The notes under the pieces are model-generated. The model saw only the letters and a list, made by a program, of their open reading frames with translations. It was not told the origin of the DNA and ran no database searches. A program made the position numbers and the translations under genes. Shown here in pieces: positions 25,294-49,707 of a stretch of DNA of 64,000 nt (within the stretch, counting starts at the first letter, position 1; each line of letters starts with the position of its first letter). This stretch comes from Flavobacterium sp. NG2. Its GTDB lineage: Bacteria > Bacteroidota > Bacteroidia > Flavobacteriales > Flavobacteriaceae. Where the stretch lies: positions 1,528,001-1,592,000 of the forward strand of contig NZ_CP139420.1 of NCBI RefSeq assembly GCF_034119845.1. The letters run 5' to 3'.

Positions 25294-26250
25294 ATGGATT
25301 TCAGACTTCAAGTTCCTGTCTTAAAAAGTAAATTTCCTATTGATTATGATTCCAAAATACTATCACTAGGTTCTTGCTTTGCGGAGAATATGAGTCAGAA
25401 ATTTGACTATTTTAAATTCCAAAATACAGTTAATCCTTTTGGGATTATTTTCAACCCTGTCTCCATTGAAAAATTAATCCAACGTACGGTTCGCAAAGAC
25501 TATTTTACGGATAACGATGTTTTTTTTCATAACGATTTAGGGCATTGTTTTGAAGTGCATTCAGAATTGTCAAATCCTGATGAAGAAGAATTGATTAATC
25601 AATTGAATGGATTATTAGATGGATTTTATAACCAAATCACGCAAGCCACACATGTGGTAATCACTTTAGGGACCGCCTGGGTATATCGCCATATTGAAAG
25701 AAATACAATCGTGGCCAATTGCCATAAAGTTCCTCAAAAACAATTTACTAAGGAATTGTTATCTGTAGAGACTATTGTGAGTAGTATTCAAAGTAGTATT
25801 GATGTAATACAGTCTGTTAATCCAAATTGCAATTTCATATTTACCGTTTCACCAGTTCGACATATAAAAGATGGTTTTTTTGAAAACAATATAAGTAAAG
25901 CATCATTACTGCGAGCCATTTATGAAATAGTGAATACTGAACACTATAAACTGAATACTGAATACTTTTGTAGCTACGAAATCATGATGGATGAATTGCG
26001 TGACTATCGTTTTTACGCTCCAGATATGTTGCATCCAAGTCAAGTGGCGATTGATTATATCTGGGAACGATTCAAAGAAGCCACGATTTCTGAATCTTCA
26101 TTTTCCGTGATGAAAGAGGTTCAACAGATACAAACCGCCTTATTGCATCGTCCTTTTAATCCCAATTCAGAGTCTCATCAGCAATTTGTTATCAAAAATC
26201 AAAAACGAATTGAAACTTTGACCCAAAAATATCCTTTTATGGTTTTTTAA
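25294..26250 (+). CDS. GSCFA-domain protein
   Basis: The 318-residue protein carries the family signature LSLGSCFAENM (about 25-35). Further SGNH-hydrolase-like blocks are VVITLGTAWVYRH and DMLHPSQVAIDYIWERF, placing the likely nucleophile in GSCFA and Asp/His in DMLHPS. No signal peptide is seen, so it is probably cytosolic. Members are common in Bacteroidota, and in some genomes they sit beside alaS, as here. The substrate is not known. Confidence 0.9.
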   Translation: MDFRLQVPVLKSKFPIDYDSKILSLGSCFAENMSQKFDYFKFQNTVNPFGIIFNPVSIEKLIQRTVRKDYFTDNDVFFHNDLGHCFEVHSELSNPDEEELINQLNGLLDGFYNQITQATHVVITLGTAWVYRHIERNTIVANCHKVPQKQFTKELLSVETIVSSIQSSIDVIQSVNPNCNFIFTVSPVRHIKDGFFENNISKASLLRAIYEIVNTEHYKLNTEYFCSYEIMMDELRDYRFYAPDMLHPSQVAIDYIWERFKEATISESSFSVMKEVQQIQTALLHRPFNPNSESHQQFVIKNQKRIETLTQKYPFMVF

Positions 26251-26299
26251 CTTTTGATTATGATTTTCTCAAAGGATTTTGTTTATTTGAAATTATGTT

Positions 26300-27667
26300 T
26301 TGATTAAAGTAATGCCTATGGATTCAAATATACTTTACCTTAATTGTTTTGTCATATTTATATTATCATTAATTGTAGTCTCTATCCTTATTACCAAAAA
26401 AGAAAATCCCAAAGCAAGATTATCGTTCTGCTTTTTCTTTTTGAACATTATCTTAGTCTGTTTTTCTAATTTAATCACCTATTATTACGGCAATTATCAT
26501 TTGGTATTCATTCAGTTTTCTATTTCTGGTTTTGCATTGTTGTACGGGCCTATGCTGTTGCAATACGTTTATTTTACTTTGGAACAAAAACTACCTAAAT
26601 ATTGGAGTTTAAACTATTGGATTGTATTATTGGTTTTTGTTGCAGGTCTATATTATTTATTTATACCTGACGAATTGCAAAAACAATATTTTGACGAAAT
26701 GATTCAAGGAAATCATACGCCTACGGCAATTTTGAATAATTTGGTGTTGTTTCATTCCGTTTTTTATTTTATTTATCTACGAATATTTCTCAATAAATTT
26801 AAAGTGAGTGAGAACGATATCCAACTAACTTTAAGAAAGGAATGGGTTTCTGATTTTGTGAATTATATGATTTTCTGTAATGTGATTTTTATTTTCTATT
26901 ACATAATCGCTACATTATTTTATGCTGAATATATTGTTTTTGGGGATTTAGTAATTGTTCCCATTATTATCTTGGCTATCTATTCATTTATTGTCATCAA
27001 AAGTTCTCAAAAGCATAAAGAAGCCGAATACAAATATGTTTTGTCACATATCGAAAATCAAAATGAATTGTTGCAACAACGTTTGTCTATTTCGAGAGAT
27101 TTGCATGATAATATAGGTTCTCAGCTTACTTTTATCTTGTCCTCTGTTGAAAACATACAGTATGCGCATACCATTGAGGATGTACATTTAGGAACTAAAT
27201 TGAATTCCATTAGTCAATTTGCAAAGGAAACCATCGTGGAATTAGGAGATACGGTATGGGCATTGAAGAGCAACGAAATGCTATTTGAAGATTTAGAAAT
27301 GCGTATCAATGATTTTATAGCTAAAGCAAAAATGTCAAACGAAGCAATTCAGTTTAGTTTTGTGATTGACAAAAATGTAAGAAATAAAAAGTTGAGTTCC
27401 ATTGAAGGCATGAACATTTATAGGGTGTTACAAGAAGCCGTTCACAACGCTTTCAAACACGCACAAGCAAGACAGATTACAATAACGGTTTCTGAAAAAG
27501 AAAACCAACTCCTAATTACCATTCAAGATGACGGAATTGGGTTTGACAGTGCTACTATTGTCAAAGGAAACGGATTGAATAATATGAAAAAAAGAATCCT
27601 TCAAATAGGAGGGCAGTTGATATTGGATTCTAATTCGCAAGGAACAAAAGTGGAAATTAGGCTCTGA
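26300..27667 (+). CDS. sensor histidine kinase, multi-pass membrane type (NarL-partner class)
   Basis: The 455-residue protein has about seven membrane helices in residues 12-235 and no periplasmic domain of note. A short coiled coil (about 238-262) leads to a HisKA_3-type phosphoacceptor ISRDLHDNIGSQLTFI with His269. The ATPase domain shows the N-box YRVLQEAVHNAFKHA, the G1 box DDGIGFD and the G2 box GNGLNNM. This kinase class partners NarL/LuxR-type response regulators, one of which is encoded at 40494. The catalytic core is closely similar to that of the kinase at 29948. A start at 26318 (MDSNIL) is equally plausible. Confidence 0.88.
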   Translation: MIKVMPMDSNILYLNCFVIFILSLIVVSILITKKENPKARLSFCFFFLNIILVCFSNLITYYYGNYHLVFIQFSISGFALLYGPMLLQYVYFTLEQKLPKYWSLNYWIVLLVFVAGLYYLFIPDELQKQYFDEMIQGNHTPTAILNNLVLFHSVFYFIYLRIFLNKFKVSENDIQLTLRKEWVSDFVNYMIFCNVIFIFYYIIATLFYAEYIVFGDLVIVPIIILAIYSFIVIKSSQKHKEAEYKYVLSHIENQNELLQQRLSISRDLHDNIGSQLTFILSSVENIQYAHTIEDVHLGTKLNSISQFAKETIVELGDTVWALKSNEMLFEDLEMRINDFIAKAKMSNEAIQFSFVIDKNVRNKKLSSIEGMNIYRVLQEAVHNAFKHAQARQITITVSEKENQLLITIQDDGIGFDSATIVKGNGLNNMKKRILQIGGQLILDSNSQGTKVEIRL

Positions 27668-27689
27668 TTTTCCTCTTTTTATTTAAAAA

Positions 27690-27707
27690 ATAGGGCAATT
27701 GCCTTAT
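27690..27707 (+). promoter_or_regulatory. shared operator, site 1
   Basis: ATAGGGCAATTGCCTTAT is nearly palindromic around GGCAATTGCC. It is identical to sites at 32533 and 37755. Exactly 30 nt after its end a TTTG -7 core ends (27734-27737), and the ATG of the next gene follows 27 bp later. Confidence 0.8.
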
Positions 27708-27763
27708 TTCCCATCAGCAATCATATTTAGAATTTTGTTTAAACTAATTTTAAATATGCCAAT

Positions 27764-28813
27764 ATGAAAACCTTTTTTAAAAAATTATTTTTTCTATTCC
27801 TGCTCACAGCCTTTCTAACTTCGAATGCTCAAACAATTAATGAGTTTAAGATTAAGAGTTTTGGAGGAACCAAACAATTAAAAAACAAACCTAAAAAAGT
27901 ATTTGTAAACGATTTTGTGGTACATTATCAGTTTTACAATCAAAAAGAGAAGACTTCCAAAGGAGGAATGCTAGGAAGTGTACTGACGGGTGACGCCAAA
28001 TCAAAACTTTTTTTAGGATTGGATAATTTAACCGAAGAAAATTTTAAAGACATTACCAATGATTTGTTTGCTGATTTTAAAAATCAATTGAAAACAAAAG
28101 GCTATGAATTTGTTGATGGGAAAAATTATGAAAAAACAGATGCCTTCAAAGGAAGAGAGCGCATAGAAAATTATCCCGTTTCTTATACCATTTTCCCAGG
28201 AGTAGCCTCTGTTCGTCCGAGTAATTATGCCTTTTATTCTTCAAACGAAAACTTCTTGAAAATGAATTACGGTTCTAAATTGTCCAAAGATTTGGATGAT
28301 GCAGTGGTGGCCAATGTAGAATTGTTTGTGTTTTTTATTGAAGATAAAAACTCATGGGCTCAAAGAAATAAAAGTGCCAATATAAAAGTAGAAACACAAT
28401 TGCGTATTGTTGCTTATGACAATGTCAAAGCCATCAATGAAAAAGAAATAAGCAAATTACAAGCCTTAACCATCGGGAAGAAAAAACAAGTGGATATTCC
28501 AGCACAAAGCCAAATTGACATCACTTGTGGACGTAACCCTATTGGAGGGTCGCCTGATGTTAGTTATATAGGAACGCTTAAAAATGATATTGTTATCGAT
28601 GGAGCTTTCAAAACGCAAACTATTAAGAGTGAGGCAAAAAATGATGAAGATTACATAGGTACCAATACGGCTTTTGGGAAAGTGTATAGAGCCAACAATA
28701 TTACGGTTTCTAACAGTTATGTTTTACCAGTGGATGTAGAAAAATATAAAGCAGGGGTGTTAAAAGGTGGAATAGCTTTCCTTAAATCACACATTGATGA
28801 AATGCTAAATTAA
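27764..28813 (+). CDS. exported protein of unknown function, operator-controlled
   Basis: The 349-residue protein has a signal peptide (FFLFLLTAFLTSNAQ, about 9-23) and no other membrane segment, so it is periplasmic or outer-membrane associated. Visible blocks are KPKKVFVNDFVVHYQFYNQ, a Gly-rich GGMLGSVLTGDAKSKLFLGL and a Lys-rich C-terminal third. I recognise no domain. It is the first gene after operator site 1 and has its own terminator, so it seems to be a monocistronic output of the local two-component system. Confidence 0.7.
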   Translation: MKTFFKKLFFLFLLTAFLTSNAQTINEFKIKSFGGTKQLKNKPKKVFVNDFVVHYQFYNQKEKTSKGGMLGSVLTGDAKSKLFLGLDNLTEENFKDITNDLFADFKNQLKTKGYEFVDGKNYEKTDAFKGRERIENYPVSYTIFPGVASVRPSNYAFYSSNENFLKMNYGSKLSKDLDDAVVANVELFVFFIEDKNSWAQRNKSANIKVETQLRIVAYDNVKAINEKEISKLQALTIGKKKQVDIPAQSQIDITCGRNPIGGSPDVSYIGTLKNDIVIDGAFKTQTIKSEAKNDEDYIGTNTAFGKVYRANNITVSNSYVLPVDVEKYKAGVLKGGIAFLKSHIDEMLN

Positions 28814-28831
28814 AACACCTAGATTTGATTT

Positions 28832-28870
28832 AAAAGCTGACTGAATGATAAAAAAGAGGTCAGCTTTTTT
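28832..28870 (+). terminator. terminator after the exported protein gene
   Basis: AAAAGCTGAC (28832-28841) pairs with GTCAGCTTTT (28859-28868), and a T run follows. It covers a possible upstream start of the next gene (28845), so that start is unlikely. Confidence 0.75.
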
Positions 28871-28898
28871 ATTTTTAGGAATAGTGAAATTTCGTTAT

Positions 28899-29924
28899 AT
28901 GCAATTCAAAATGAATAGAATCCTTCCCGTTTTTATCTTAATGCCCCTACTATGGATTTTATGCTCCAATGTTTCCCAACCCGGAGTGTATAATAGTGGC
29001 GGAATGGCATTTACCATGTTGTTTCCCGAAGATTCATTGGCTTACAAAAAAATACAAATGCGGGAAGAGCGTATTTATATTCAGTTGTACAAAGGCTATG
29101 CTGTGGTCAAAGGAGTTTACCAAATGGTCAATACCTCTTCAGATAAGTTGAGTTTTAAAATGGGATATCCCATCAAAGGAATTTATCATGGTGGGGCAGT
29201 AGAAAGCAATGAAGTGAGTTTGGATTCGATTTATAAATTCAAAGTGAAGTCCAATGGCAATGAGCTGCCTATCCTTACACATCAATTTGATGATACGAAT
29301 GAAGTAATGACGTTTGCAAACCAAAATTGGTTAACATGGCAGATGGATTTTTTGCCCCAACAAGAAAATGTAATTACGGTTTATTTCATTGTAAACACCA
29401 ATAACGGACAGGTTGCAAGAGGGTATTCTAGAGATTATTTGAATGTGTTTACCTATCTCCTTGAATCAGGCAAAGTATGGAAACAACCTATAGAAAAAGC
29501 TACTTTTACCATACAATTGCGAGATGGTTTAAGTTACAAAGCTATTCGTGGCTTATCTGAACATTTTCAGTTTAAAAAAGCTTCTAATGCTCCGATACTC
29601 TTGGGAGGGTTAACAGCTTTTTCACCTTTGCCTAAAGATAATTTGGTTGTTACTTACGGTCATCAAATCGAAAATTTTGATTTCGAAAAGGTATTGGAAA
29701 AAGAAACTATTTTATTTGAGGCAATAGATGATTTTTCCAATCAAAAATTACCTTCCACTTTTGAAAAAATACAACCTCAAAGTCCTTATGAGGTATCATT
29801 TGATATTTGGTCAACTTTTCCGTTTATGATTATTATTTTAGGAATAATAGCACCTGTTGTTCTTATTGTAGTGGTTGTTTTTTATATTTTTAAGCAAATT
29901 TATAACCGTAGAAAATCCAAATAA
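28899..29924 (+). CDS. exported protein with C-terminal membrane anchor, unknown
   Basis: I start this gene at ATG 28899 (MQFKMNRIL, or 28911), because the frame's earlier ATG at 28845 lies inside a terminator hairpin. The 341-residue product has a signal segment (ILPVFILMPLLWILCSNV), a large extracytoplasmic domain (MLFPEDSLAYKKIQMREERIYIQLYKGYAVVKGVYQMVN...) and one C-terminal helix (FMIIILGIIAPVVLIVVVVFYIF) with a basic tail. The KMGYPIKGIYH segment recalls DUF4424-like domains, but this is weak. The kinase gene follows after 23 bp, so it may supply a periplasmic partner for that kinase (inference). Confidence 0.65.
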   Translation: MQFKMNRILPVFILMPLLWILCSNVSQPGVYNSGGMAFTMLFPEDSLAYKKIQMREERIYIQLYKGYAVVKGVYQMVNTSSDKLSFKMGYPIKGIYHGGAVESNEVSLDSIYKFKVKSNGNELPILTHQFDDTNEVMTFANQNWLTWQMDFLPQQENVITVYFIVNTNNGQVARGYSRDYLNVFTYLLESGKVWKQPIEKATFTIQLRDGLSYKAIRGLSEHFQFKKASNAPILLGGLTAFSPLPKDNLVVTYGHQIENFDFEKVLEKETILFEAIDDFSNQKLPSTFEKIQPQSPYEVSFDIWSTFPFMIIILGIIAPVVLIVVVVFYIFKQIYNRRKSK

Positions 29925-29947
29925 TAGTCTTAATTAATCTGCTTGGT

Positions 29948-31894
29948 ATGAATAGCAATAGCTGTAATTTAGAGTTAAGAAACAAGTGGAAGTACCTATT
30001 GCTGCTTTTAGGTTTTTGGTGTCATGGAATTTTGGCTCAAGAAAAAATGCCTTTGCAACAGCTCAAAAAACAAGCGAATTATTGGATACAAAAAGCGAAT
30101 GATTCCAGCGACCAAAACAACAATGAAGCGCTTGTTTATGCTAAAAAAGCATTGGCAATTTCTCGACAAATACCCAATGATACACTTTTGTCACAAGTAT
30201 ATAATACGTTAGCCAACGCTTACCAACACAAAACCTTATTAGATAGTGCTATTGTATTTCATAAACAAGCGTTGCAACTTCGTCAAAAAATAAACAGTCC
30301 ATTAGAAATTGGGGACAGCTATAATAATTTAGGAATATGCAGTGAGTTTTTAGGTGATTTAAAAACTGCCTTGACGTATTATTTTAAGGCCTTGTCAATG
30401 TATGAACGTCAAGGCAGTCCAAGCAAGCAAGCGATGGTTTTGACTAATATTGGAATCGTTTATAAGGAACAAAAGTCGTATGCCAAAGCTTTGAACTACT
30501 ACAAAAAAGCCAATGTTATATATACTAGTATTAACGATGATTTTGGGAAAACGGCAACCTATGGTAATATGGGTTCGGTATTGTTGAATTTAAAGCAATA
30601 TGAAAAATCGATACACTATTCTGCTAAAGCATTTGAAGGATATCAAGCTTTAGGGTTCAAAAACTACCTTCCGTACCCAGTTTCGAACATGGCCATGGCG
30701 CTGGATAGTTTAGGGAATTATTCTCAAGCGGAAACTAAATTTAAAGAGGCTATACTTGGTCATAAAGAAACGGGTAATGCTTATGAAGTGGCGAATGTTT
30801 TGAATGCTTATGCCAAAAGTTTGTTGAAGCAAAAAAGATATACTGAAAGTATTCAACAATCCAATGAAGCTTTAGTGTATATTGAAAAGACAAATGCTGA
30901 AAAACTAAAAGTAGCCCAATTGCAAAACTTGTCTAAAGCTTATGCCGGCTTGAATAAATTTGATAAAGCCTATTGGTTTTCGCAACAATACAATGCGATT
31001 AAAGATACCTTATTTGAAAAAGAAAAAGCCAAAGCTGTTTTTGAATTGGAAACAAAATACCAAACAGCCAAAAAAGATGCTTTGTTAATTAAGTCTAAAA
31101 ATCAACTCGCTGAACGTGAGCGCCGAATTAAAGAGAAAAACAAATTGTTTTATTTTGCTTCGGGCATGGCTTTTTTGTTAGGGTTGATAGGTTTTTTAGT
31201 GTACCAACAACAACGACTTAAAAACAAACAAATTATCAAAGAAAACGAATTAAAACAGGCGTTAATCAAAATTGAAAATCAAAACAATCTTCAGCAACAA
31301 CGACTGGCGATTTCTAAGGATTTGCATGATAATATTGGCGCGCAATTGACCTTTATTATTTCGTCATTGGACAATTTGAAATATTTTGATTTTACTAAGG
31401 AAAAATTGTATTCCAAGTTTGATGCGATAGGTACTTTTACCCGTTCCACAATTACGGATTTGCGTGATACCATTTGGGCTATGAACAAGGAACACATCAC
31501 CTTTGAAGACTTAAAAATAAGAACGACTAATTTTATTGAAGCGGCACGAACTTCTTTGATTGGTATCACTTTTTCATTCACACATCCTCCTCAATCAGAG
31601 GAAATATGTTTTAATGCTTTAATGGGTATTGATGTGTATCGAATTATTCAAGAAGCGGTGAACAATGCAGTCAAACATGCAAAAGCGACCCAAATTAGTG
31701 TTCGTTTTGAAAATAAAAATAACCAACTCGAAATCACCATTCATGACAATGGAACTGGTTTTGACACCACTATTATTGAAGCAGGTAACGGAATGCTATC
31801 GATGAAAAAAAGAGCTCGCGAAATAGGAGCAACATTACAATTAACGTCATCAGATACAGGAACCCGTGTTCAGTTGTGTTTGCCTGAACAATAG
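29948..31894 (+). CDS. TPR-containing sensor histidine kinase
   Basis: The 648-residue kinase has a signal peptide (YLLLLLGFWCHGILAQ), then a periplasmic array of about seven tetratricopeptide repeats (about 55-350, e.g. DSYNNLGICSEFLGDLKTALTYYFKAL). A coiled coil leads to a single membrane helix (about 400-419) and a cytosolic HisKA_3 motif ISKDLHDNIGAQLTFI with His460, then the ATPase domain (YRIIQEAVNNAVKHA, DNGTGFD, GNGMLSM). This layout is common among Bacteroidota two-component sensors. The core is a paralogue of the kinase at 26300. The only response regulator nearby is at 40494. Confidence 0.93.
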   Translation: MNSNSCNLELRNKWKYLLLLLGFWCHGILAQEKMPLQQLKKQANYWIQKANDSSDQNNNEALVYAKKALAISRQIPNDTLLSQVYNTLANAYQHKTLLDSAIVFHKQALQLRQKINSPLEIGDSYNNLGICSEFLGDLKTALTYYFKALSMYERQGSPSKQAMVLTNIGIVYKEQKSYAKALNYYKKANVIYTSINDDFGKTATYGNMGSVLLNLKQYEKSIHYSAKAFEGYQALGFKNYLPYPVSNMAMALDSLGNYSQAETKFKEAILGHKETGNAYEVANVLNAYAKSLLKQKRYTESIQQSNEALVYIEKTNAEKLKVAQLQNLSKAYAGLNKFDKAYWFSQQYNAIKDTLFEKEKAKAVFELETKYQTAKKDALLIKSKNQLAERERRIKEKNKLFYFASGMAFLLGLIGFLVYQQQRLKNKQIIKENELKQALIKIENQNNLQQQRLAISKDLHDNIGAQLTFIISSLDNLKYFDFTKEKLYSKFDAIGTFTRSTITDLRDTIWAMNKEHITFEDLKIRTTNFIEAARTSLIGITFSFTHPPQSEEICFNALMGIDVYRIIQEAVNNAVKHAKATQISVRFENKNNQLEITIHDNGTGFDTTIIEAGNGMLSMKKRAREIGATLQLTSSDTGTRVQLCLPEQ

Positions 31895-31925
31895 TCGAAT
31901 GTGGTTTTTTATAGCACAACATAAA

Positions 31926-32516
31926 ATGAATTCGAATACTCATTCCATAGCTACTTACTGTTCAATTGTCCTTATGACAGGATGTACCATTATGGAAATT
32001 ATTCATAAACAAACCACTGTATTTTACATTTTGTACTTGTTTTGGTTTGACGAATTTATTCGGACTGTTTTTGATAGAATCGCTTACTATTCCAAAAAAG
32101 TTCCAACAGCTAATGCGGTTCAATTCCTTGGAAACAATAAAGAAAGGTTCTTTATGTTGGGTATTTATTTGGTGTTTATTATTGTCTTTTTTGGTGTCAT
32201 TATTGATTGGAAAGAACTCGATTTGATAGGATTGAATTTTGAAATTTTTAGTTTTAAAAACCCTTATTTTAATGGGAGCCTATTCATTTTTACACTAAAA
32301 GAAGGCTTTCTTTTTTATACTAATTCGAAAGTAAGATACGCCAAAGATATTTTCTCGAACGGCATACTCACGCTGCATCTGTCTCTATTGCTAGGCATTT
32401 TGATTTGGTTTTTATCTGCTCAAAAATGGCAATTCATGGTCGAATATGCCAATGTTTTCGCGGTTATTCCTTTTTTGATTGTCAAAATTATCTTCGAACT
32501 AAAACTAAAAGAATAA
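31926..32516 (+). CDS. polytopic membrane protein, unknown
   Basis: From ATG 31926 (MNSNTHSIATY) the 196-residue protein has about five hydrophobic segments, among them ILYLFWFDEFIRTVFDRIAYYSKK. The helix-plus-Asp/Glu pattern is somewhat like the DUF6498 protein at 39474. The upstream extension to 31866 overlaps the kinase gene and is less likely. It is the last gene before operator site 2. Confidence 0.6.
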   Translation: MNSNTHSIATYCSIVLMTGCTIMEIIHKQTTVFYILYLFWFDEFIRTVFDRIAYYSKKVPTANAVQFLGNNKERFFMLGIYLVFIIVFFGVIIDWKELDLIGLNFEIFSFKNPYFNGSLFIFTLKEGFLFYTNSKVRYAKDIFSNGILTLHLSLLLGILIWFLSAQKWQFMVEYANVFAVIPFLIVKIIFELKLKE

Positions 32517-32532
32517 CTGTTTTTTGAGCAAT

Positions 32533-32550
32533 ATAGGGCAATTGCCTTAT
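32533..32550 (+). promoter_or_regulatory. shared operator, site 2
   Basis: ATAGGGCAATTGCCTTAT is identical to sites 1 and 3. The TTTG core ends at 32580, exactly 30 nt after it, and the ATG at 32601 follows 21 bp later. Confidence 0.8.
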
Positions 32551-32600
32551 TTATTCGTGTTTCCTGTTTGGTTTATTTTGTGATATTCAAATAACCCATT

Positions 32601-34061
32601 ATGAGAGCGATACGATACTTGTTTTTATTTTTTGTAGGTAGCACAATAGCCCAAAACGGTTTGTTTACTAACATACAATGGAGTACTAAATTAAAACCCA
32701 TACTCAATAAAGCAGAAACCCATTGCTTGCTTTGGAACGGCTCTAGCTATGGTTTAATCTATGATTTGACAACAGGAGAACAAGTAAAAGAAGTTATCCT
32801 AACAGGCTTTACTAAGAGTAGCAGTTTTGAAGCTCTTGTTTTTGATTATAGAAATGACAAAGCCATTATAGCAGGTTGGGACAATAGCGAACTAAAACCA
32901 GACCATTATTTCTTATGGGATGAAGCCTCAAATTCTTTTTTTCCAGGCAATAATTTTGCAAAACCCAATCATGGAAAAATTATCGATTTGATAGGAGATG
33001 AAATAGTTTTTTGTTTTACGATTTATAAAAAAGATAGCAAGGGGCGTCTTGATTTAGACAAACCCGAACATAGTTTTGTGCAATTTTACAATTGGAAAAC
33101 TAAAAAATGGCGTGAAACCAAATACGACTACGAATTTGCCGTTGCTATTCCGTCTAAGAATTTATTGGGCTTTAAGGAAAAAAACAAAATAAAATACCTT
33201 GATATAAATACGCTTTCTTTTTTGGATACCACGACTGATTCGTATGACAATATTATCACGCATTATCAAGATGGAAAGGTTTATGCTGCTAAATACAATA
33301 AAGGAATTGATAAAGTAGCCTTGCTAGATGAAAAGACCTTGACCACAGGGAAATTCAGCAAACCACCTTCAACAAATAATTTGGATTATTATTGGGGTGC
33401 TTTATGGAAATACCAAATCCAACTGTTGAAGACCGAAAATAAAAGTTTAAATGCTCAGGATGTCGATTTAGTAATCACCAATAAGCAAACCAAAGAGGAA
33501 AAGAAAGCAAGAATCACGGCGGGTAGTAAGGAAGAGGTAGCTTTACTTCGGGATAGAGTTGAAACAATCAAAAATGCCCGTTTGAATCAAACAAAGAATG
33601 ATTTAGCTAAAAAATATGCCGGTCAAACAGCTGATTTTAAGGAATGGGAAATCAATTTTCAGGACTTGCCTAAATCCTACGTACATAATTATCAAAACGC
33701 CAAAGGAAGAGATATAACTAATTTAAAAATGTCTCGAAGATTGTTCTTAACGCCTAATACCACGGTTTATGCGATTGGTAGAATATTTCAATGTGAGGAA
33801 TCCAAAACCTTTTTGGTGATGCTCAGAGGGCCTCAGGCAGAAGGAACCGAATCAGTTTATGCGGTGCTTAAAACAGACCATTATGGCAATAGATTGCAAT
33901 ACCAAATCGTTGCAAGAACCCTCAGCAATAATTTAGGATATATCCAGATGGATGATTTTTCCATTTCGACCTATCTCAATAACAATACAACCATTGATGT
34001 TACTGAGAATTATATGGGAGAAAAAAAGAAAAAACAGTATAAAATATATTGTCTGAATTAA
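32601..34061 (+). CDS. exported beta-rich protein, unknown, operator-controlled
   Basis: The 486-residue protein has a signal peptide (YLFLFFVGSTIAQ, residues 6-18). Repeated short beta units (HCLLWNGSSYGLIYDL, AIIAGWDNSEL, DIIDL-type turns) in the first 280 residues suggest a propeller-like fold. A charged helical linker follows (about 285-340, KEEKKARITAGSKEEVALLRDRVETIKNARL), then another beta region. I recognise no named family. It is the first gene after operator site 2, leading into the MORN and TPR-CHAT genes, so the three are likely one transcript. Confidence 0.65.
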   Translation: MRAIRYLFLFFVGSTIAQNGLFTNIQWSTKLKPILNKAETHCLLWNGSSYGLIYDLTTGEQVKEVILTGFTKSSSFEALVFDYRNDKAIIAGWDNSELKPDHYFLWDEASNSFFPGNNFAKPNHGKIIDLIGDEIVFCFTIYKKDSKGRLDLDKPEHSFVQFYNWKTKKWRETKYDYEFAVAIPSKNLLGFKEKNKIKYLDINTLSFLDTTTDSYDNIITHYQDGKVYAAKYNKGIDKVALLDEKTLTTGKFSKPPSTNNLDYYWGALWKYQIQLLKTENKSLNAQDVDLVITNKQTKEEKKARITAGSKEEVALLRDRVETIKNARLNQTKNDLAKKYAGQTADFKEWEINFQDLPKSYVHNYQNAKGRDITNLKMSRRLFLTPNTTVYAIGRIFQCEESKTFLVMLRGPQAEGTESVYAVLKTDHYGNRLQYQIVARTLSNNLGYIQMDDFSISTYLNNNTTIDVTENYMGEKKKKQYKIYCLN

Positions 34062-34123
34062 CGAATAAACGCATTTACAAAACAAACCTCTTTCAATTTC
34101 AACTCACAAAATAAAAACTAATT

Positions 34124-34867
34124 ATGATGAAAAAAATACTACCATTAGCCTTGTTGTTAGCCATTACAACCACTTGGGCACAATCTAATTTTAACAAACA
34201 ACCAGGAAAAAAAGAGTTTAAAAAAGGAATGGTTACTTACGAATCGTTTACAGATTCTAACGGTGCTGTATCGTACGGATTTAGAATAAACGGACTAATT
34301 GTAGGACCCAATATGGTGTTGCATACCAATGGGAAATCTTCGTTTGTAAATTACAATCTTAGTAGCCAAATGGACGGAACTTTAATTGAAATGGATAAAA
34401 ATTCGGGGACGATAGATTTGATTACCTACAGAGATGGCGAAAAAGATGGTCCGTCGTTCAAAATAACCAATGGAAAACCGAGCTCAAGTCAGCAATATAA
34501 GAATGGTAAAATTGACCCAAAAGGTTTTAATCCACCACCTCCTGGAAAATATGCCTTGCAAAAAGGGGATGGAAAAACAGGTTTGACGATGGAAAAATAC
34601 GATAAAAGTTATGCTTTAGGCTATTTTATTCACGGATACAGAAATTTTCCGATGATTCATGTATGGAATGATGGAGACTCTTATTACGGGCAATATATGT
34701 TTGGAGAACGCAGAGGGTTTGGCGTTTTTTTCTATAAAAACGGAAATAAATACGTAGGCTATTGGGATGAGAATTATAGAGAAGGACTTGGTTTTTTAGT
34801 GGATAAAAACGGAGTAGTCATTGAAAAAGGCTATTATGATGACGGAAAATTAGTAACTCCATTATAA
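34124..34867 (+). CDS. exported MORN-repeat protein (short)
   Basis: The 247-residue protein has a signal peptide (LPLALLLAITTTWAQ). The C-terminal third contains MORN-type repeats with the usual Y-x-G-x-(W/F)-x-x-G pattern: DSYYGQYMFGERRGFGVFFYKNGNKYVGYWDENYREGLGF. The N-terminal part is related in style (KFMVTYESFTDSNG-like and DGTLIEMDKNSGTIDLITYRDGEKDGPS units). MORN repeats bind proteins or lipids at membranes, and the role of exported bacterial ones is unknown. It sits 10 bp before the TPR-CHAT gene. Confidence 0.82.
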   Translation: MMKKILPLALLLAITTTWAQSNFNKQPGKKEFKKGMVTYESFTDSNGAVSYGFRINGLIVGPNMVLHTNGKSSFVNYNLSSQMDGTLIEMDKNSGTIDLITYRDGEKDGPSFKITNGKPSSSQQYKNGKIDPKGFNPPPPGKYALQKGDGKTGLTMEKYDKSYALGYFIHGYRNFPMIHVWNDGDSYYGQYMFGERRGFGVFFYKNGNKYVGYWDENYREGLGFLVDKNGVVIEKGYYDDGKLVTPL

Positions 34868-34877
34868 TTTCAATTCT

Positions 34878-37736
34878 ATGATGTCTTTGAAAAAAATAGC
34901 GATTCTATTTGGATTTTTTTGGTCATTAGTCGTAAGTGCGCAAAATGATTTCAATGCTTTTTACAGCACTTATTTAGAAGGCTATAAATCCAATGATTTG
35001 TCAAAAATGAAATCCGGAAGCGAAGGCCTGATGGTTAATTTTTCGGATGAGTTTGCTGGCTTTTATCTGAACTCGTACTATCAAATCCTAAAAGGAGATT
35101 TGAATCAGGCGCAACTAGCCAATACTCAGGCAATGAACATTCAGCCTTTGATATCATATCCCTATTACACACAGGCCTATATTGACTATCTCAATGGCAA
35201 TACAGCAACTGCCATGAAAAATTTAGAATGGGCTGCTCAGTTGTGTACCTTTCCTTCACCCAAAGACATTATTGATGATATCGAAAAAATTGAGGCCATT
35301 ACAAAGAAAGATTTATCGGGACTGAAAAACCAATGGAACTCCTATTACCAAACGAATTTTATTCAGCCTAAAATAAATTCTGCCAATGCTTTAGACCAAT
35401 GCGTAAACGGTATTTTGACTAAGGGACAAAAGTGTGACAATCTGGACGCTCAATTTGCTTATTTTTCGACTTTAAAAAATGCCAATCCGTTATTTCAAAA
35501 AATGCTGCCCTTACTTAAAGCGGTAACGTATTATTACGGAAGAAATACAACAGCCAGCATTAAACAATTTGAAACCTTTATCGAAGGCAGCAAAAACATT
35601 GCTCAATTATACTGGAAAAGAAGTTACGCACTACATTTTTTATCAACCATCAAGAAAAATTCCTTTGACAGCCGTGGGGCTTTGTTGGATATCAATGAAG
35701 CGTTAGTCGATTATTCAAAGTTGCATTTCCCTTCGGTACATCAGGCGTATATGCAAATGCATAAAATTAATGTGATAGGGGATGTAGGCAGTAATGTGGA
35801 GGAAAAAGTTCAAATGGCATATCAATTGGAACAAACCGCTAACAAAATCAACAATGATTATTATAAGGCTCGAGCCTATGGAGTCATTGGCGCTACCAAT
35901 TTTTTTAGTCGTGACCCTGTTGAAAAACAAAAAGCCACAGATTATATTTTGAAAGCCTATAATCTGGCAAAGAAAATACAAGATGACGACTTGTCAAATT
36001 CGGTTAATACTAACTATGCGATGATTAAAGCCAAACAAGGCTTGTTTGCTGAAGCAGTGCGTTTGAACGAAGAGGTAGCTACTAATTATTTGTCAAAAAA
36101 ACAATTTCAAAAAGCGCAAAACAACTACAACAACCTTGGTTTTGTTTTCTACATGCAAAAAGAGTATGCTAATGCGATTGTTCAGTTTGAAAAAAGCATC
36201 GATTTAATTGATAAAGTAAAAAAAGACTTGAATGCCAAGCAAAAGTTGGAATACATGAATGCTGTTTCGGGAACTTTTGAGGCGATGATGATGTGTCTAA
36301 AAGAAACCAATAAGGTGGACAAACTTTTTGAAATGCAAGAAAAAACAAGAAGTGGTTATCTTAAAGAATTGCTCAACATCAATACAAATTTTGCAACGAT
36401 AAAGGATGCTCAGGATATGCTTACCAATGAGGAAGTACTGCTTACTTTTTCGATAGGTCGTCCTGGGGAAATCATTATTACGGCGATTACTAAAAACAAA
36501 GCCGAAATACGCTACAATTATCCTATTGAGAATTTAATTGCTTTAAAAAAGTTTTATACCGATCGCATCAAAAAAGTACCTTCTGAATTGAACAAATACA
36601 TGCAGGATTTTAATGTGGATTACGTCAACGGGAAATTGGTGCGTTATGCAGATAAAAGCAGCAATTACACCAAAGACGATTTTGTTACTTTAGTGCAATG
36701 GACTCGTGATGTTTTAGAAAATTCAGACAAACCCGATTATCAAAAACCACAAGCCGATTTTTTACATTTTTGGTACAATCTCACCTTGCAACCCGTACAA
36801 GATTTGGTTTCACAATACAAAAATGTCATTATTAGTGTGGCTTCGGAGTTGAATTATTTGCCTTTTGAAGCTTTCATTAGTCCCAAAAACCAATACTTTG
36901 TAAGTACTAATAATGTGCGTTATATTCCTAACGTAACCATTTGGAAAAAAATCGCAAACCGCCATTATAGTAATGACCGAAAATCCATTTTGGCTTATGG
37001 AGGCGCACAGTTTCAACCCTCAGGAAATGTAAAAGGAACGGTTCGTAATATGGAAGATTTTTACAAAGTTTCGGATGCGGTGACTAAAAAAATCCAGCAA
37101 GGGAATTACAATCTTAAACCAGAATTGGAAGCCGTAGGTTTTGGTGGTGCCAATTTCTTAGAAGGAACGCTCAAAGAAGTACAATTTATGGCTACGCTGT
37201 CAAAAGATGTTAAGGTGGTAACAGGACTGAATATGAGTGAATCCAACTTTAAAAAAGCCAATCTTTTGGGTGAATTAAAACAATACAAAAACATCCTTAT
37301 TTCTACTCATGGTTTTACTGATGATGTGATACCTGAATTTAGTGGCGTGATGTTTTCGCAACCCAATGGAGGCGATGGCAAAGAAGATACGTTTTTGCTA
37401 GCTCCCGAAATTATGAAACTCAACCTCAATGCTGATATGACGGTTTTGAGTGCATGTAGTACCGCAGTAGGTAAATTGTACGGAGGAGAAGGAATTAATG
37501 GCTTGAATAACGCCTTCTTGATTGCGGGATCCAATAGCACTTTGCTTTCGTTGTGGCCCGTAAATGATGCTAGTACGGCGATAACCATGCAAATGTTGTT
37601 TAAAAAAGTAGTTCAAGAAAATGCCCAAACCAGTGTAGTCTTGAACGATATCAAACGTGCTTTTATCAACGGTGATATAGGTGAAGCAGCCAAATCACCC
37701 AAATATTGGGCGCCTTTTTTATACAACGGGAGATAG
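34878..37736 (+). CDS. exported TPR-CHAT (caspase-like) protein
   Basis: The 952-residue protein has a signal peptide (IAILFGFFWSLVVSAQ, about 6-21). Residues about 25-480 are TPR-like helical repeats (SYPYYTQAYIDYLNGNTATAMKNLEWA, NNYNNLGFVFYMQKEYANAIVQFEKS). The C-terminal part, about 620-952, is a CHAT domain of the caspase clan. The catalytic pair is His811 in ISTHGF and Cys860 in LSACSTAVG, both present. CHAT proteases are known in other contexts to cut partner proteins on a signal. This one is exported, so it would act in the periplasm or outside. It is cotranscribed with a MORN protein under operator site 2. Confidence 0.9.
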   Translation: MMSLKKIAILFGFFWSLVVSAQNDFNAFYSTYLEGYKSNDLSKMKSGSEGLMVNFSDEFAGFYLNSYYQILKGDLNQAQLANTQAMNIQPLISYPYYTQAYIDYLNGNTATAMKNLEWAAQLCTFPSPKDIIDDIEKIEAITKKDLSGLKNQWNSYYQTNFIQPKINSANALDQCVNGILTKGQKCDNLDAQFAYFSTLKNANPLFQKMLPLLKAVTYYYGRNTTASIKQFETFIEGSKNIAQLYWKRSYALHFLSTIKKNSFDSRGALLDINEALVDYSKLHFPSVHQAYMQMHKINVIGDVGSNVEEKVQMAYQLEQTANKINNDYYKARAYGVIGATNFFSRDPVEKQKATDYILKAYNLAKKIQDDDLSNSVNTNYAMIKAKQGLFAEAVRLNEEVATNYLSKKQFQKAQNNYNNLGFVFYMQKEYANAIVQFEKSIDLIDKVKKDLNAKQKLEYMNAVSGTFEAMMMCLKETNKVDKLFEMQEKTRSGYLKELLNINTNFATIKDAQDMLTNEEVLLTFSIGRPGEIIITAITKNKAEIRYNYPIENLIALKKFYTDRIKKVPSELNKYMQDFNVDYVNGKLVRYADKSSNYTKDDFVTLVQWTRDVLENSDKPDYQKPQADFLHFWYNLTLQPVQDLVSQYKNVIISVASELNYLPFEAFISPKNQYFVSTNNVRYIPNVTIWKKIANRHYSNDRKSILAYGGAQFQPSGNVKGTVRNMEDFYKVSDAVTKKIQQGNYNLKPELEAVGFGGANFLEGTLKEVQFMATLSKDVKVVTGLNMSESNFKKANLLGELKQYKNILISTHGFTDDVIPEFSGVMFSQPNGGDGKEDTFLLAPEIMKLNLNADMTVLSACSTAVGKLYGGEGINGLNNAFLIAGSNSTLLSLWPVNDASTAITMQMLFKKVVQENAQTSVVLNDIKRAFINGDIGEAAKSPKYWAPFLYNGR

Positions 37737-37754
37737 TTTTTGGAACCCAAACAA

Positions 37755-37772
37755 ATAGGGCAATTGCCTTAT
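37755..37772 (+). promoter_or_regulatory. shared operator, site 3
   Basis: ATAGGGCAATTGCCTTAT is identical to sites 1 and 2. The TTTG core ends at 37802, exactly 30 nt after it, and ATG 37826 follows 24 bp later. Confidence 0.8.
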
Positions 37773-37825
37773 GGTGTGTGACTTCCTTTTTTTTCAACTT
37801 TGATTGTACTTTAATTTTGATACTT

Positions 37826-39466
37826 ATGAAACGATTTTTTACCCTATTCCTCTTATTCAGTCTCTCTTTGGTTAAGGGACAAAACTTCCCCAAAGTCGTA
37901 TTAAAACATTATGATATTGTGACCAATGATGTCGTTGCAATAAATGAGATTTCCAGTTCTTACAATGGTGTTTCAAAAACATTTGGTGTTGAAAGAAAGA
38001 CAGCGTACGAATTTGATGCAAACGGGTACAATACGGCGATTAAATATCCTTCGAGTGATTCCAAAACAATTATTTCGTATGATAAAAAATACACCCAACA
38101 AACCAAACAAATTAATGATAAAAAATATGTTGAATACCTAATCGTAACTCCAGAACGTTATTATATTATGCCCACAAATGACGTGGAGAAAAACAGCGAT
38201 GGTTCTGTCAAGAAAATAACGTATAAGGATTTGACTAACAAAAAAGATTTCGATTATAATTTTAGTTATAAGGGAGGTATTACAACCATTACGTCAACAG
38301 GTAGTTTTAATTTGACTCAACGGTTTTCTTCTGATGGATTAATGCTTTCGGAAGCCACGGATTTATTAAATACGTATTGTTTTTATAATAATCCAAAGAC
38401 TAAATTGCTCTCTCAAAAAATATCAAAATTAAATAAAGGCGGTTCGGATATTTATTATGTATCGCTATATGAATACGATACACAAGGCAATTGGATAGTA
38501 CGTTATAACTTTTCGACGATTCCTACGTATGGAACAATGGGGAATTTGATACAGTCGGTTACCGTTAGGGAATTGTTTTATAAAAAAGACAATAAGACCG
38601 GCTATACGACCATACCTGAAAATATTAAAAATAAGGCTATCAATCTTCGAACGAGCATTTCGGTTACTAAATTAGAGACTAATAATTACGAGAGTTTTCC
38701 AGTTTATATTGATTTTGATAAAAATCTTAACTCTCAAGCAAGTCTTAGCAATCCAAGTACACCTAGTAGTCCAAGTACACCAAACTCTCCACAACCCATG
38801 AGTGTGGATGTAAAATGTAGAGGGAATTGCCAAGATGGTTGGGGAACCTATACGTATGACAATGGTTATTATGACGGTTTTTGGAAAAACGGCCAAAAAA
38901 ACGGCTACGGTCTATATTCGTGGAATACAGGAGCTAAATATTTTGGAAACTGGGAAAACAATCAAATGTCGGGTTATGGTGAAACGATATTAAGTAACGG
39001 TGACCTTCATTTTGGGTTATACAAAAACAACAAATATGATGGGGCAGGAGTGTTCTTTAACAAAGAAAAAAACAAATACGAACACAACATTTACCAAGAG
39101 GGAAATTTTCTAAAAACAGCGGGTTATATAACCATTCCAGGCGCAACTACAGGTTGTACAGCAGGACAGTGTTATAATGGTTATGGACGCTATGTATTTC
39201 CAAATGGCGATCAATACTACGGACTTTTTGTAAATGGAGCGATGCATGTAGGAAGTTTTATTTTTAAAAATGGAGATGTTTACATGGGCGAATTCAATGA
39301 TAAAAATCAATTCTCAGGCTACGGATTTTATAAATTCAAAGAATCTGGTGATTTCTATCGAGGCAATTGGGCTGCTGGTAAATATGATGGTTGTGGTTAC
39401 GGTTTTTTTAACAAACAAACGAGCCGTGGCGAATTTAAAAATGGGGTTTTGGTAAACAAAATGTGA
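37826..39466 (+). CDS. exported MORN-repeat protein (long)
   Basis: I start at ATG 37826 (MKRFFTLFLLFSLSLVKGQ), which gives a clean signal peptide and lies after the operator. The frame runs further up but overlaps the TPR-CHAT gene. The 546-residue protein has an N-terminal beta-rich region with YD-like units (about 25-330), a Ser/Pro-rich linker (SNPSTPSSPSTPNSPQP), and then at least eight MORN repeats to the end (YYDGFWKNGQKNGYGLYSW, YFGNWENNQMSGYGE, YYGLFVNGAMHVGSF, YRGNWAAGKYDGCGYGFF). Two Cys pairs lie in CRGNCQDGWG and CTAGQCYNGYG. It heads the operon that ends with the response regulator. Confidence 0.85.
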   Translation: MKRFFTLFLLFSLSLVKGQNFPKVVLKHYDIVTNDVVAINEISSSYNGVSKTFGVERKTAYEFDANGYNTAIKYPSSDSKTIISYDKKYTQQTKQINDKKYVEYLIVTPERYYIMPTNDVEKNSDGSVKKITYKDLTNKKDFDYNFSYKGGITTITSTGSFNLTQRFSSDGLMLSEATDLLNTYCFYNNPKTKLLSQKISKLNKGGSDIYYVSLYEYDTQGNWIVRYNFSTIPTYGTMGNLIQSVTVRELFYKKDNKTGYTTIPENIKNKAINLRTSISVTKLETNNYESFPVYIDFDKNLNSQASLSNPSTPSSPSTPNSPQPMSVDVKCRGNCQDGWGTYTYDNGYYDGFWKNGQKNGYGLYSWNTGAKYFGNWENNQMSGYGETILSNGDLHFGLYKNNKYDGAGVFFNKEKNKYEHNIYQEGNFLKTAGYITIPGATTGCTAGQCYNGYGRYVFPNGDQYYGLFVNGAMHVGSFIFKNGDVYMGEFNDKNQFSGYGFYKFKESGDFYRGNWAAGKYDGCGYGFFNKQTSRGEFKNGVLVNKM

Positions 39467-39473
39467 TCAGACC

Positions 39474-40211
39474 ATGGGGGAACTTAGTAAAATAGTGGCG
39501 GTTTTACCTTCCTATCAAGGAGTGTATTGGAATGCCCTGTTTTTAATAGTGTTGTTGTTTCTTGGAAAAGCGAATCCTATGGCCATTGTTTTTGCGTATG
39601 TGTTAGAGACGATTATCATAGGTGTGTTTCATGTAGGAAAACTGATTTTAATCCTCCGTAACAATCCTTTGGAGAAAACACAATCTGCGATTACGTCTTA
39701 TTTCACAATTCCTTTCTTTTTACTCCATTATGGTTTTTTTGTAGCTATTCAAAGTGTTTTTATTTATATCGGTTTTGCAATCAAAGACGAACGCTTTTCA
39801 ACCTCGTTGCAAGCGAGTAACTTTCTTTCTATTCTATCGTTAGAAGGATTTTATTGGGTGTTCCTTTCCTTGATAGCAACTCATTCGATACAGTTTTATT
39901 TCCATTTTTATAAAAATAAAAAATACAATGAGTATAGTTTGAATCGGTATTTTATGAAACCTTATTTGCGGATTTTCATTCAGCAATTTTTAGCCATTAT
40001 ACCGTTCTTCTTTTTGATTGTTTATGACCATGTGGGAATAATAGCGGCTTTGTTGCTCATTGGGATGCGAACATTTCTAGATGTTTATCTTAGTGAATTA
40101 GCACGTCATCCAGAGAAATTAAATAAGGTAGCGCGCTCTTTGATGAAAACCAATAAACCCGAAGAATTACCCGAAATCAAAAAAACATTGCAGGTTTTTT
40201 TGGAAGACTAA
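39474..40211 (+). CDS. DUF6498-like integral membrane protein
   Basis: The 245-residue protein has about six membrane helices. NALFLIVLLFLGKANPMAIVFAYVLETIIIGVFHVGKLILI near the start matches the pattern of DUF6498 (hydrophobic helix, then W/Y-x-L-E-x-x-x-x-G-x-F-x-x-x-K). A second polar loop (RNNPLEKTQSAITSYFTIPFFLLHYGFF) and the C-terminal cytosolic tail are also present. It lies 7 bp after the MORN gene, in the operon ending with the response regulator. The function of this family is unknown. Confidence 0.65.
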   Translation: MGELSKIVAVLPSYQGVYWNALFLIVLLFLGKANPMAIVFAYVLETIIIGVFHVGKLILILRNNPLEKTQSAITSYFTIPFFLLHYGFFVAIQSVFIYIGFAIKDERFSTSLQASNFLSILSLEGFYWVFLSLIATHSIQFYFHFYKNKKYNEYSLNRYFMKPYLRIFIQQFLAIIPFFFLIVYDHVGIIAALLLIGMRTFLDVYLSELARHPEKLNKVARSLMKTNKPEELPEIKKTLQVFLED

Positions 40212-40236
40212 AATGAAAGCAAAACAAGGATGAAAG

Positions 40237-40497
40237 ATGAGTGTATTGTTAATTTTATTATTTTTAGTAGGTTTGGTACTAGTAATGTGTTGCATCCAAG
40301 CCATCGCTAAGTCCAAAAAAGAACACCAAGTTTTGATGGAACAAATTGAGGATCAATTAGGACTTCAAAAAGAAACCCAGCAGGATTTGCAAAAGAACGC
40401 AAAACAAGATTGGGTGTCGATGATTTATTTTAAGTTAAAAATCATCCAACAACAAGTATATTTACTATCGGAAATTTCTAAAGAAAGGGAACCATGA
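40237..40497 (+). CDS. small membrane protein with coiled coil, overlaps the response regulator
   Basis: The 86-residue protein has one N-terminal helix (LLILLFLVGLVLVMCCIQAIA, about 4-24) and a Gln/Lys/Glu-rich coiled coil after it. Its last four bases overlap the start of the response regulator (ATGA), so the two are translationally coupled. Such small coiled-coil proteins can tether or tune a partner at the membrane. Here that partner would be the regulator or the kinases (inference). Confidence 0.7.
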   Translation: MSVLLILLFLVGLVLVMCCIQAIAKSKKEHQVLMEQIEDQLGLQKETQQDLQKNAKQDWVSMIYFKLKIIQQQVYLLSEISKEREP

Positions 40498-41135
40498 AAA
40501 TAGCCATTATAGATGATAATCACTTTTTAATTCAGTCAGTCAAAGAAAAATTATCTTTTTTTGAAGAAGTAGAAATCAAATTTACAGCTTGTGATGGGAA
40601 TGATTTGATGGAAAAATTAGAGAACCACTACCATCTCGATGTGTTGTTAATGGATATCGAAATGCCCGTGATGAATGGAATCGAGGCTACCTTGTTAGTC
40701 AAACAAAAGTATCCTCATATCAAAATTATCATGCTCACCGTTTTTGATAACGACGAAAATATATTTAATGCCATAAAAGCGGGTGCCGATGGCTATTTGT
40801 TGAAAGATGTAAACCCTCATACCTTGTTCAACGGAATCGTGGAGACTTTAAATGGTGGTGCTGCCATGAATCCTTCAATCGCGATGAAAACACTAAAACT
40901 CTTGCGCAATCCAGTGGATTTTAATCTTGATAATCCAGAAGATTTTAATCTTACCGCTAGAGAAATCGATGTTTTAGAACAACTAGCTCAAGGATTAAGT
41001 TATACCGTTATTGCGCAAAATATGTTTTTGTCGCCATCGACCATTCGCAAACACATTGAAAATATTTATAGCAAATTACAAGTGCATTCTAAACTAGAAG
41101 CCGTTCAAAAAGCCCAACGAAATAATTTGATTTGA
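40494..41135 (+). CDS. NarL/FixJ-family response regulator
   Basis: The 213-residue protein has a receiver domain (acid pocket IIDDN, phospho-acceptor Asp54 in LLMDIEMPVMNG, conserved Thr in MLTVFDND, Lys in LLKDVNP) and a C-terminal LuxR-type helix-turn-helix (about 148-213, LTAREIDVLEQLAQGLSYTVIAQNMFLSPSTIRKHIENIYSKL). It closes the operon that begins at operator site 3, so autoregulation is likely. It is the best candidate to bind ATAGGGCAATTGCCTTAT, since it is the only regulator in the island. Two HisKA_3-type kinases (26300 and 29948) are possible donors. Confidence 0.95.
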   Translation: MKIAIIDDNHFLIQSVKEKLSFFEEVEIKFTACDGNDLMEKLENHYHLDVLLMDIEMPVMNGIEATLLVKQKYPHIKIIMLTVFDNDENIFNAIKAGADGYLLKDVNPHTLFNGIVETLNGGAAMNPSIAMKTLKLLRNPVDFNLDNPEDFNLTAREIDVLEQLAQGLSYTVIAQNMFLSPSTIRKHIENIYSKLQVHSKLEAVQKAQRNNLI

Positions 41136-41183
41136 GTTAAAACTATAACGCCACTTTTTATATCTTCGTTCAAAAATTAAGAT

Positions 41184-41825
41184 ATGGCTTATACTTCTAA
41201 ACTGGCAGAATTTAGAAAATGGTTTACCATCCTGCTTTTGGCATTGGTTTTGTTTTTTGGCTATCAATATTTTTCGAAAAAAGACAATAGTTCTACTATA
41301 GAATACGATACAGCACTAATCCAGTCCCAAATTAAAAATGTCGCGAAACTGGTAGTTACCGAAGGACATTTCTCCGAGGTACTTACCTATAAAGACCAAC
41401 GCAAAACCTATATTCCAGGGCTTACTTTTGATAAAAAAGCATTGGTGGTTGTCAATGCTGAAGTGACTGTTGCTTTTGATATGAGTCAATTAACCTATGA
41501 TATTGATGCCGAAAATAAAACTTTGACATTGACAAATATTCCTGAGGAAGAGATCAAAATCTATCCCGAACTTAAATATTACGATGTCGAGTCTAGCCGA
41601 TTCAATGAATTTACAGGTAGTGATTATAATAAAGTTGCTAAAATTGCCAAAGCTAATATTGCTAAGAAAATCGAAAAATCAACACTTAAATCCAATGCCA
41701 AAAACCGATTAATCTCTGAACTTTCAAAATTATTGATTGTCACGAAGTCTATGGGGTGGAAATTAGAGTATCAAGGTAAGATAGTTGAAAATGAAAGTGA
41801 CTTGACTCAAAAAGTGAAATTATAA
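41184..41825 (+). CDS. DUF4230-domain protein
   Basis: The 213-residue protein has one N-terminal membrane helix (about 13-29), then a DUF4230 domain (SQIKNVAKLVVTEGHFSEVLTYKDQRK...FDKKALVVVNAEVTVAFDMSQLTYDIDAENKTLTLTNIPEEEIKIYPELKYYDVESSRFN). Its role is not known. It lacks the shared operator. A weak -7 match (TATCTTCG) at 41161-41168 lies just before the gene, which suggests a separate promoter from the regulator operon. Confidence 0.85.
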   Translation: MAYTSKLAEFRKWFTILLLALVLFFGYQYFSKKDNSSTIEYDTALIQSQIKNVAKLVVTEGHFSEVLTYKDQRKTYIPGLTFDKKALVVVNAEVTVAFDMSQLTYDIDAENKTLTLTNIPEEEIKIYPELKYYDVESSRFNEFTGSDYNKVAKIAKANIAKKIEKSTLKSNAKNRLISELSKLLIVTKSMGWKLEYQGKIVENESDLTQKVKL

Positions 41826-49572: not shown

Positions 49573-49707
49573 TGAATTTAACTTTTTTATGAATATCGGT
49601 ATTACAATCCGTGATCTTTGTCATTTTGATAAAGGAGCAATCTCGATAATTATTCAACTACCTTCATTCAATTCCTATAAATCCCTTTATTTTTAAGTAA
49701 ACCTCAA

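Follow-up and report, generated by a model that had tools for sequence, protein, structure and literature searches.

A 64,000-nucleotide (nt) stretch of Flavobacterium sp. NG2 (contig NZ_CP139420.1, positions 1,528,001 to 1,592,000; hereafter the window) carries three exact copies of an 18-bp dyad, ATAGGGCAATTGCCTTAT, at positions 27690, 32533 and 37755 of the forward strand, each at one fixed distance from a promoter-like TTTG and each in front of genes for probable exported proteins. Judging from sequence, we consider it very probable that the response regulator encoded at 40494 uses this dyad as its operator and that kinase-driven, class II-like activation through it controls three operons, the regulator's own included.

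Three identical dyads at a fixed promoter spacing

A scan of the window allowing up to three mismatches found nothing beyond the three copies of ATAGGGCAATTGCCTTAT except their own opposite-strand readings (expected by chance, 0.08; maximum, 2 in 100 shuffles). The 4.15-Mb genome likewise holds three exact copies, and its two-mismatch matches are only the complements of those three. Three-mismatch matches occur at six further places in the genome, none of which is of the promoter type in a search with a relaxed consensus plus TTTR; that search, at up to two mismatches, added three sites, all with two mismatches, against three matches of the reversed control, and these weaker sites were not accepted because their number equals that of the control. 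For the same reason, the NG2 regulon appears limited to the three sites and self-contained in its own genome.

The dyad is symmetric at 16 of its 18 positions and begins, in all three copies, 17 to 23 nt past the stop codon of the preceding gene. Pairwise identity among the 100-bp flanks is 21 to 31% upstream and 33 to 35% downstream. A first-pass annotation of the window had counted three copies and no other, and had taken their differing flanks to mean that they are not a simple duplication; both statements hold, and the genome-wide scan that it proposed returned only these three sites.

In each copy, TTTG occupies nt 27 to 30 past the dyad. Passages of a study on Flavobacterium psychrophilum (PMC9723704) place the promoter element TAnnTTTG at -12 to -5, and the dyad is therefore predicted to span -52 to -35 with its center at -43.5, in agreement with the earlier estimate of about -43. 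That annotation had also proposed a -7 core ending 30 nt after the dyad: the TTTG is present at all three promoters, but the full octamers (GAATTTTG, TTATTTTG and CAACTTTG) are degenerate in their TA part, copy 2 lacking even the A. The operator's end extends to the -33 place, where none of the three promoters has a TTTG; according to passages of another study (PMC7366714), a -33 element could not be identified in Flavobacterium johnsoniae.

The spacing recurs in sets of loci whose selection did not depend on the motif. Among palindromes with at most one mismatch, TTTR follows at exactly 26 nt in 24 of 25 cases in 50 loci selected by their CHAT gene, in 10 of 13 in 30 regulator-selected loci of the genus, and in 9 of 12 in 39 regulator-selected loci (class-wide and by handle). 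In the union of 48 distinct palindromes, read in both orientations, offset 26 scores 45 and any other offset scores 0 to 13; 1.17 Mb of shuffled loci contained no palindrome. The window shuffles, the genome scan and these locus shuffles together rule out a chance origin of the three sites.

We also assembled, from 49 fetched loci plus the window, a set of 110 site-promoters (at most one mismatch, TTTR at 26 nt), which was partly selected through TTTR and in which some dyads are read both ways. In 101 of them, A stands at position 2 of the -7 octamer, and an ATG open reading frame (ORF) of at least 60 amino acids (aa) lies within 250 nt of 100, 84 of these frames starting 8 to 35 nt after TTTR (median, 25).

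Genes behind the sites

Of the 100 genes that follow these site-promoters, 82 received a crude signal-peptide call. Their largest cluster is a lipoprotein of 160 to 182 aa (20 genes), followed by a TPR kinase (11), a 692-aa protein (8; OmpA and PD40 in the one member scanned), a 123-aa protein (7), a MORN-like 247-aa protein (6), small transmembrane (TM) proteins (6 and 3) and the regulator itself (5), with at most 4 genes in each of the others. Pfam assigned cargo proteins to FGE-sulfatase, DUF6252, OmpA/PD40 and the C-terminal tails of the type IX secretion system (T9SS), as well as to YbjN barely above the cut-off; several had no Pfam match. These findings support control of envelope or secreted proteins by the sites, plus feedback. 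In the window, the first products behind all three sites start with a signal-peptide-like stretch, as the first-pass annotation had it; its suggestion of a feedback loop is likewise supported, relatives' sites preceding the regulator gene or the TPR kinase in the numbers just given.

The response regulator and its tie to the dyad

The product of 40494 matches Response_reg (81.9 bits) and GerE (63.9 bits), both above the Pfam cut-offs, and holds the sole DNA-binding domain among the 16 cluster and edge proteins scanned with Pfam. Its phospho-acceptor aspartate, D54, is invariant in 15 aligned regulators. The island contains, as first described, one LuxR-type regulator and two histidine kinases, each with HisKA_3 and HATPase_c domains.

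To relate regulator and dyad across genomes, we counted as carriers those with a regulator match at E ≤ 1e-40 and defined the strict site as ATANGGCANNTGCCNTAT-N26-TTTR. Carriers make up 78 of 299 Flavobacterium genomes, with identities of at least 56% among the matches listed except for three at 41 to 43%. The strict site occurs 47 times (two dyads counted twice) in 21 of the 299 genomes, against no match of the reversed control, and 20 of these 21 genomes carry the regulator (p = 4.8e-12). When the site definition is relaxed to Y at position 13 and up to one mismatch, 58 genomes bear a site, 44 of them carriers (p = 1.7e-19). Class-wide, 20 strict matches fall in 12 of 395 genomes (reversed control, 1 match), and 11 of these 12 belong to the 92 carriers, which include many remote paralogues (p = 6.5e-7). 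Sites and regulators are also often close to each other: a regulator gene is found within 15 kb of 24 of the 47 strict matches (binomial p of about 2e-28 at an assumed 2% chance), with a site immediately before the gene in genomes G382 and G594 and immediately after it in G546, where the regulator match holds two in-frame stops. Across 91 regulators, the recognition-helix stretch, approximately STVRKHIENIYxKLQVHNK, is kept down to about 47% overall identity; the lowest-identity paralogues differ. The proposed link to the LuxR-type regulator is thus backed by co-occurrence, proximity and a conserved helix.

Several observations weigh against this assignment. No site is found in 34 of the 78 regulator-positive Flavobacterium genomes even at one mismatch, and 14 site carriers at that stringency have no regulator, a number near the control rate (18 control matches, counted by eye). 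A strict site occurs where the regulator was not detected in G071 (genome 87% complete) and, class-wide, in G651 (72% complete), and the regulator match of G635 is 41% identical and lies on another contig. The co-occurrence p-values, moreover, take genomes as independent. Among loci selected by CHAT, L075 has a single site with a spacing of 24, and L082 and L083 have none despite a nearby regulator that is 45 to 47% identical and has a near-identical helix. Within the window, the only tie between the upstream histidine kinase (HK1) and the regulator is position.

In eight Flavobacterium loci (L185, L186, L187, L206, L207, L208, L211 and L212), two regulator copies occur, mostly each beside a TPR kinase, with sites nearby; paired regulators in one island could possibly cross-talk on one operator code.

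Recurrence in relatives

Scanning named genomes with the CHAT alignment yielded 50 loci, 10 of them close. The dyad is present in all 10, mostly as ATANGRCANNTGYCNTAT-N26-TTTR: seven (L072, L073, L074, L077, L078, L079 and L081) hold 2 to 5 copies each, and the two from Xanthomarina (L076 and L080) have one two-mismatch site each, before the gene group that holds CHAT. L072, from Flavobacterium sp. UMI-01, hardly differs from the window (CHAT, 98%) and contributes little. Only L084 among the 40 more distant loci has a site, with TTTA at 26 nt. A full-length CHAT match is found in only one of 150 relatives (G025), besides NG2 itself, and in Flavobacterium piscinae the CHAT cluster (L079) and the regulator (L176) lie on different contigs.

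In the ten close loci, TPR-CHAT is immediately preceded by an exported MORN-like gene (truncated at the locus boundary in L075); in the distant L082 to L084, a MORN-type gene comes after CHAT. The two products may form a peptidase/partner pair, to judge by this arrangement.

At up to three mismatches, two genomes from another family of the order have six scattered sites (G143) and three sites, one of them an exact 18-mer (G120), and the regulon seems dispersed in such relatives. The first-pass term "local" regulon fits the NG2 genome but not relatives, which carry sites elsewhere too.

Organization of the island

The island (26251 to 41183) is bounded by GSCFA (25294 to 26250) and DUF4230 (41184 to 41825), and its features are listed in Table 1. 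HK1 lies just upstream of operator 1, which is followed by the genes at 27764, 28845, 29948 (TPR kinase) and 31866; operator 2 is followed by 32601 and the MORN-like and TPR-CHAT genes (34124 and 34878), and operator 3 by the MORN, DUF6498, 40237 and regulator genes. With gaps of at most 62 nt inside each group, we infer that each is one operon.

Table 1. Proposed operators, predicted promoter elements and genes of the island (window coordinates)
Feature	Position	Strand	Basis
HK1, histidine kinase, about 6 TM-like stretches; TTG start, ATG a few codons on	26300..27667	+	HisKA_3, HATPase_c (Pfam), TM estimate
Operator 1 (dyad)	27690..27707	+	Exact-copy scans
TTTG, end of predicted -7 element, promoter 1	27734..27737	+	Sequence position
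Exported 349-aa protein, no Pfam match	27764..28813	+	Signal-peptide-like start, Pfam
Membrane protein, sub-threshold DUF4424 match	28845..29924	+	Pfam, TM estimate
TPR histidine kinase, likely periplasmic TPR sensor	29948..31894	+	TPR, HisKA_3, HATPase_c; one TM-like stretch at residue 399
216-aa membrane protein, no Pfam match	31866..32516	+	Pfam, TM estimate
Operator 2 (dyad)	32533..32550	+	Exact-copy scans
TTTG, end of predicted -7 element, promoter 2	32577..32580	+	Sequence position
Exported 486-aa protein, no Pfam match	32601..34061	+	Signal-peptide-like start, Pfam
Exported MORN-like protein, no Pfam match of its own	34124..34867	+	Weak similarity to MORN protein at 37826
Exported TPR-CHAT protein; H811 and C860 conserved	34878..37736	+	Pfam, alignment
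Operator 3 (dyad)	37755..37772	+	Exact-copy scans
TTTG, end of predicted -7 element, promoter 3	37799..37802	+	Sequence position
Exported MORN-repeat protein	37826..39466	+	PF02493; start set by signal peptide
DUF6498 membrane protein	39474..40211	+	Pfam, TM estimate
86-aa single-TM protein	40237..40497	+	Pfam, TM estimate
NarL/FixJ-type response regulator, proposed operator-binding protein	40494..41135	+	Response_reg, GerE; co-occurrence; helix

The start of the MORN gene was moved from the mechanical 37706 to 37826, where a signal-peptide-like stretch begins. The CHAT domain (PF12770) scores 147.3 bits, and H811 and C860, which we take to be the catalytic pair of this predicted peptidase, are invariant across 29 sequences. 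NCBIfam returned nothing above its cut-offs for the ten window proteins tried. A predicted structure of the 349-aa protein was not used (mean pLDDT, the predicted local distance difference test, 68.5; best PDB match, HpaA at E = 0.015).

Four genomes without the regulator were examined: GSCFA and DUF4230 are direct neighbors in three, and the fourth has GSCFA and no DUF4230 nearby. The site of the island is thus vacant in some relatives. Across 40 regions around sites or regulators, several of them cut by contig ends, we counted the TPR kinase in 33, the regulator in 32, GSCFA in 25, alaS in 18 and DUF4230 in 15. In Flavobacterium, TPR-kinase/regulator islands appear to be gained and lost at the GSCFA-DUF4230 junction.

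Elsewhere, the window holds a type VI-B system of clustered regularly interspaced short palindromic repeats (CRISPR), at 49707 to 51458 and 51559 to 55131 (minus strand), with Cas13b (PADLOC, E = 1.5e-236) beside an array of 66-nt period; a 169-nt block of the array (49839 to 50007) is repeated unchanged at 50103 to 50271, and spacers are therefore duplicated inside it. A 385-aa ORF at 6229 to 7386 had no PADLOC match and, from the look of its sequence, resembles an IS110-type transposase.

Discussion

We propose that an envelope signal would be sensed most likely by the TPR kinase, with HK1 perhaps providing a second input, and that an island kinase would phosphorylate the regulator, whose dimer would then bind the dyad (family form, ATANGRCANNTGYCNTAT) near -43.5, beside and partly over the place of a weak or missing -33 element, and recruit sigma-A RNA polymerase to a degenerate TAnnTTTG promoter. 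One signal would thereby switch on three operons of exported and envelope proteins, the MORN-like/TPR-CHAT pair among them, and the system would amplify itself, because the TPR kinase lies in operon 1 and the regulator in operon 3. Binding, activation over repression, the pairing of kinase and regulator, the operon structure and the function of the cargo are what we infer here.

A dyad that reaches -35 could obstruct the polymerase, and the regulator might instead be a repressor that blocks the -33 region until a kinase signal releases it. We regard this as improbable: steric repression would not require the base-exact spacing that is seen, and the promoters match the consensus only weakly, a common trait of activator-dependent promoters. 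It is more improbable still that the dyad belongs to another DNA-binding protein, encoded elsewhere, that merely shares genomes with the regulator. The strict sites of G071 and G651, where no regulator was detected, would fit such an owner, as would the TetR-like gene that follows the G071 site; against it stand the proximity of about half of the strict matches (24 of 47) to a regulator gene, the sites immediately ahead of the regulator gene in G382 and G594, the five regulators preceded by a site in the fetched loci, and the conservation of the recognition helix along with the site.

We give almost no credence to explanations without a DNA-level regulatory role. Three identical copies inside 10 kb might be leftovers of a recent duplication or of a mobile repeat, but their flanks are unrelated, which rules out duplication of the sites, and the promoter spacing is maintained across many genomes. 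Equally far-fetched is a function at the RNA level, with the dyad serving the upstream gene as terminator or leader structure; the short distance of each dyad from the preceding stop codon would fit such a role, whereas the dyad is tied to a downstream TTTR at one fixed distance and is linked by co-occurrence to a DNA-binding regulator.

Operator activation by the regulator, our preferred explanation, has its nearest functional parallel in FimS/FimR of Porphyromonas gingivalis. Passages of the literature describe FimS as a periplasmic TPR sensor in which TPR changes alter fimbriation (PMC11053733) and FimR as binding and activating surface-protein promoters (PMC1974823). The window kinase shares with FimS a TPR sensor, a TM segment and a HisKA_3 kinase, its own TPR region being periplasmic by prediction; it scores 65.6 bits, and a relative 86.2 bits, in the NCBIfam FimS model, whose cut-off is 600 bits. 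The cargo differs, and the likeness is drawn apart from the operators, since the passages from these sources do not include the FimR operator sequence. With NarL- and VraR-type regulators, the 40494 product shares receiver and GerE domains, and its best solved-structure matches are VraR (5hev, 7ve6 and 4gvp), then ChrA and NarL, but it falls below every NCBIfam equivalog cut-off, has its own operator and acts, as proposed, on a Bacteroidota sigma-A promoter. The lux box of LuxR-type class II activation is likewise a dyad, similar in length and centered near -42.5, to which a GerE-type domain binds; the regulator differs in having a receiver rather than a signal-molecule domain, and its promoter is of the Bacteroidota kind. 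PM2 of Bacteroides thetaiotaomicron, described in passages of its source (PMC7366714) as a near-palindromic promoter motif upstream of start sites, between -30 and -10, resembles the dyad, by that description, in being near-palindromic and from Bacteroidota, whereas the dyad is placed at -52 to -35. A literature search, judged by titles and the starts of abstracts and with most subscription journals outside its coverage, returned no description of this operator or regulon.

This is a two-component regulon of known type, set apart by a strict, old operator code. We lean slightly toward a broader proposal, in which the regulator/operator pair (helix TVRKHIENIY; ATANGRCANNTGYCNTAT at 26 nt from TTTR) is conserved in distant Bacteroidia and, within Flavobacterium, often placed in a GSCFA/DUF4230 island, with mostly exported cargo that varies by species (MORN-like/TPR-CHAT, OmpA-PD40, FGE-type, DUF6252 lipoproteins and T9SS-tailed proteins); the operator would act as a transferable substitute for the poorly defined -33 element, and the whole an envelope-signaling system undescribed in the papers searched. 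The case bears on how activators act on Bacteroidota promoters, with their TAnnTTTG and ill-defined -33 elements: the sequence by itself reveals a regulator, its likely operator and a strict promoter geometry. The operator code would also allow the targets of this two-component system, which many Bacteroidia possess, to be listed, and the exported CHAT/MORN pair is indicated to be one output.

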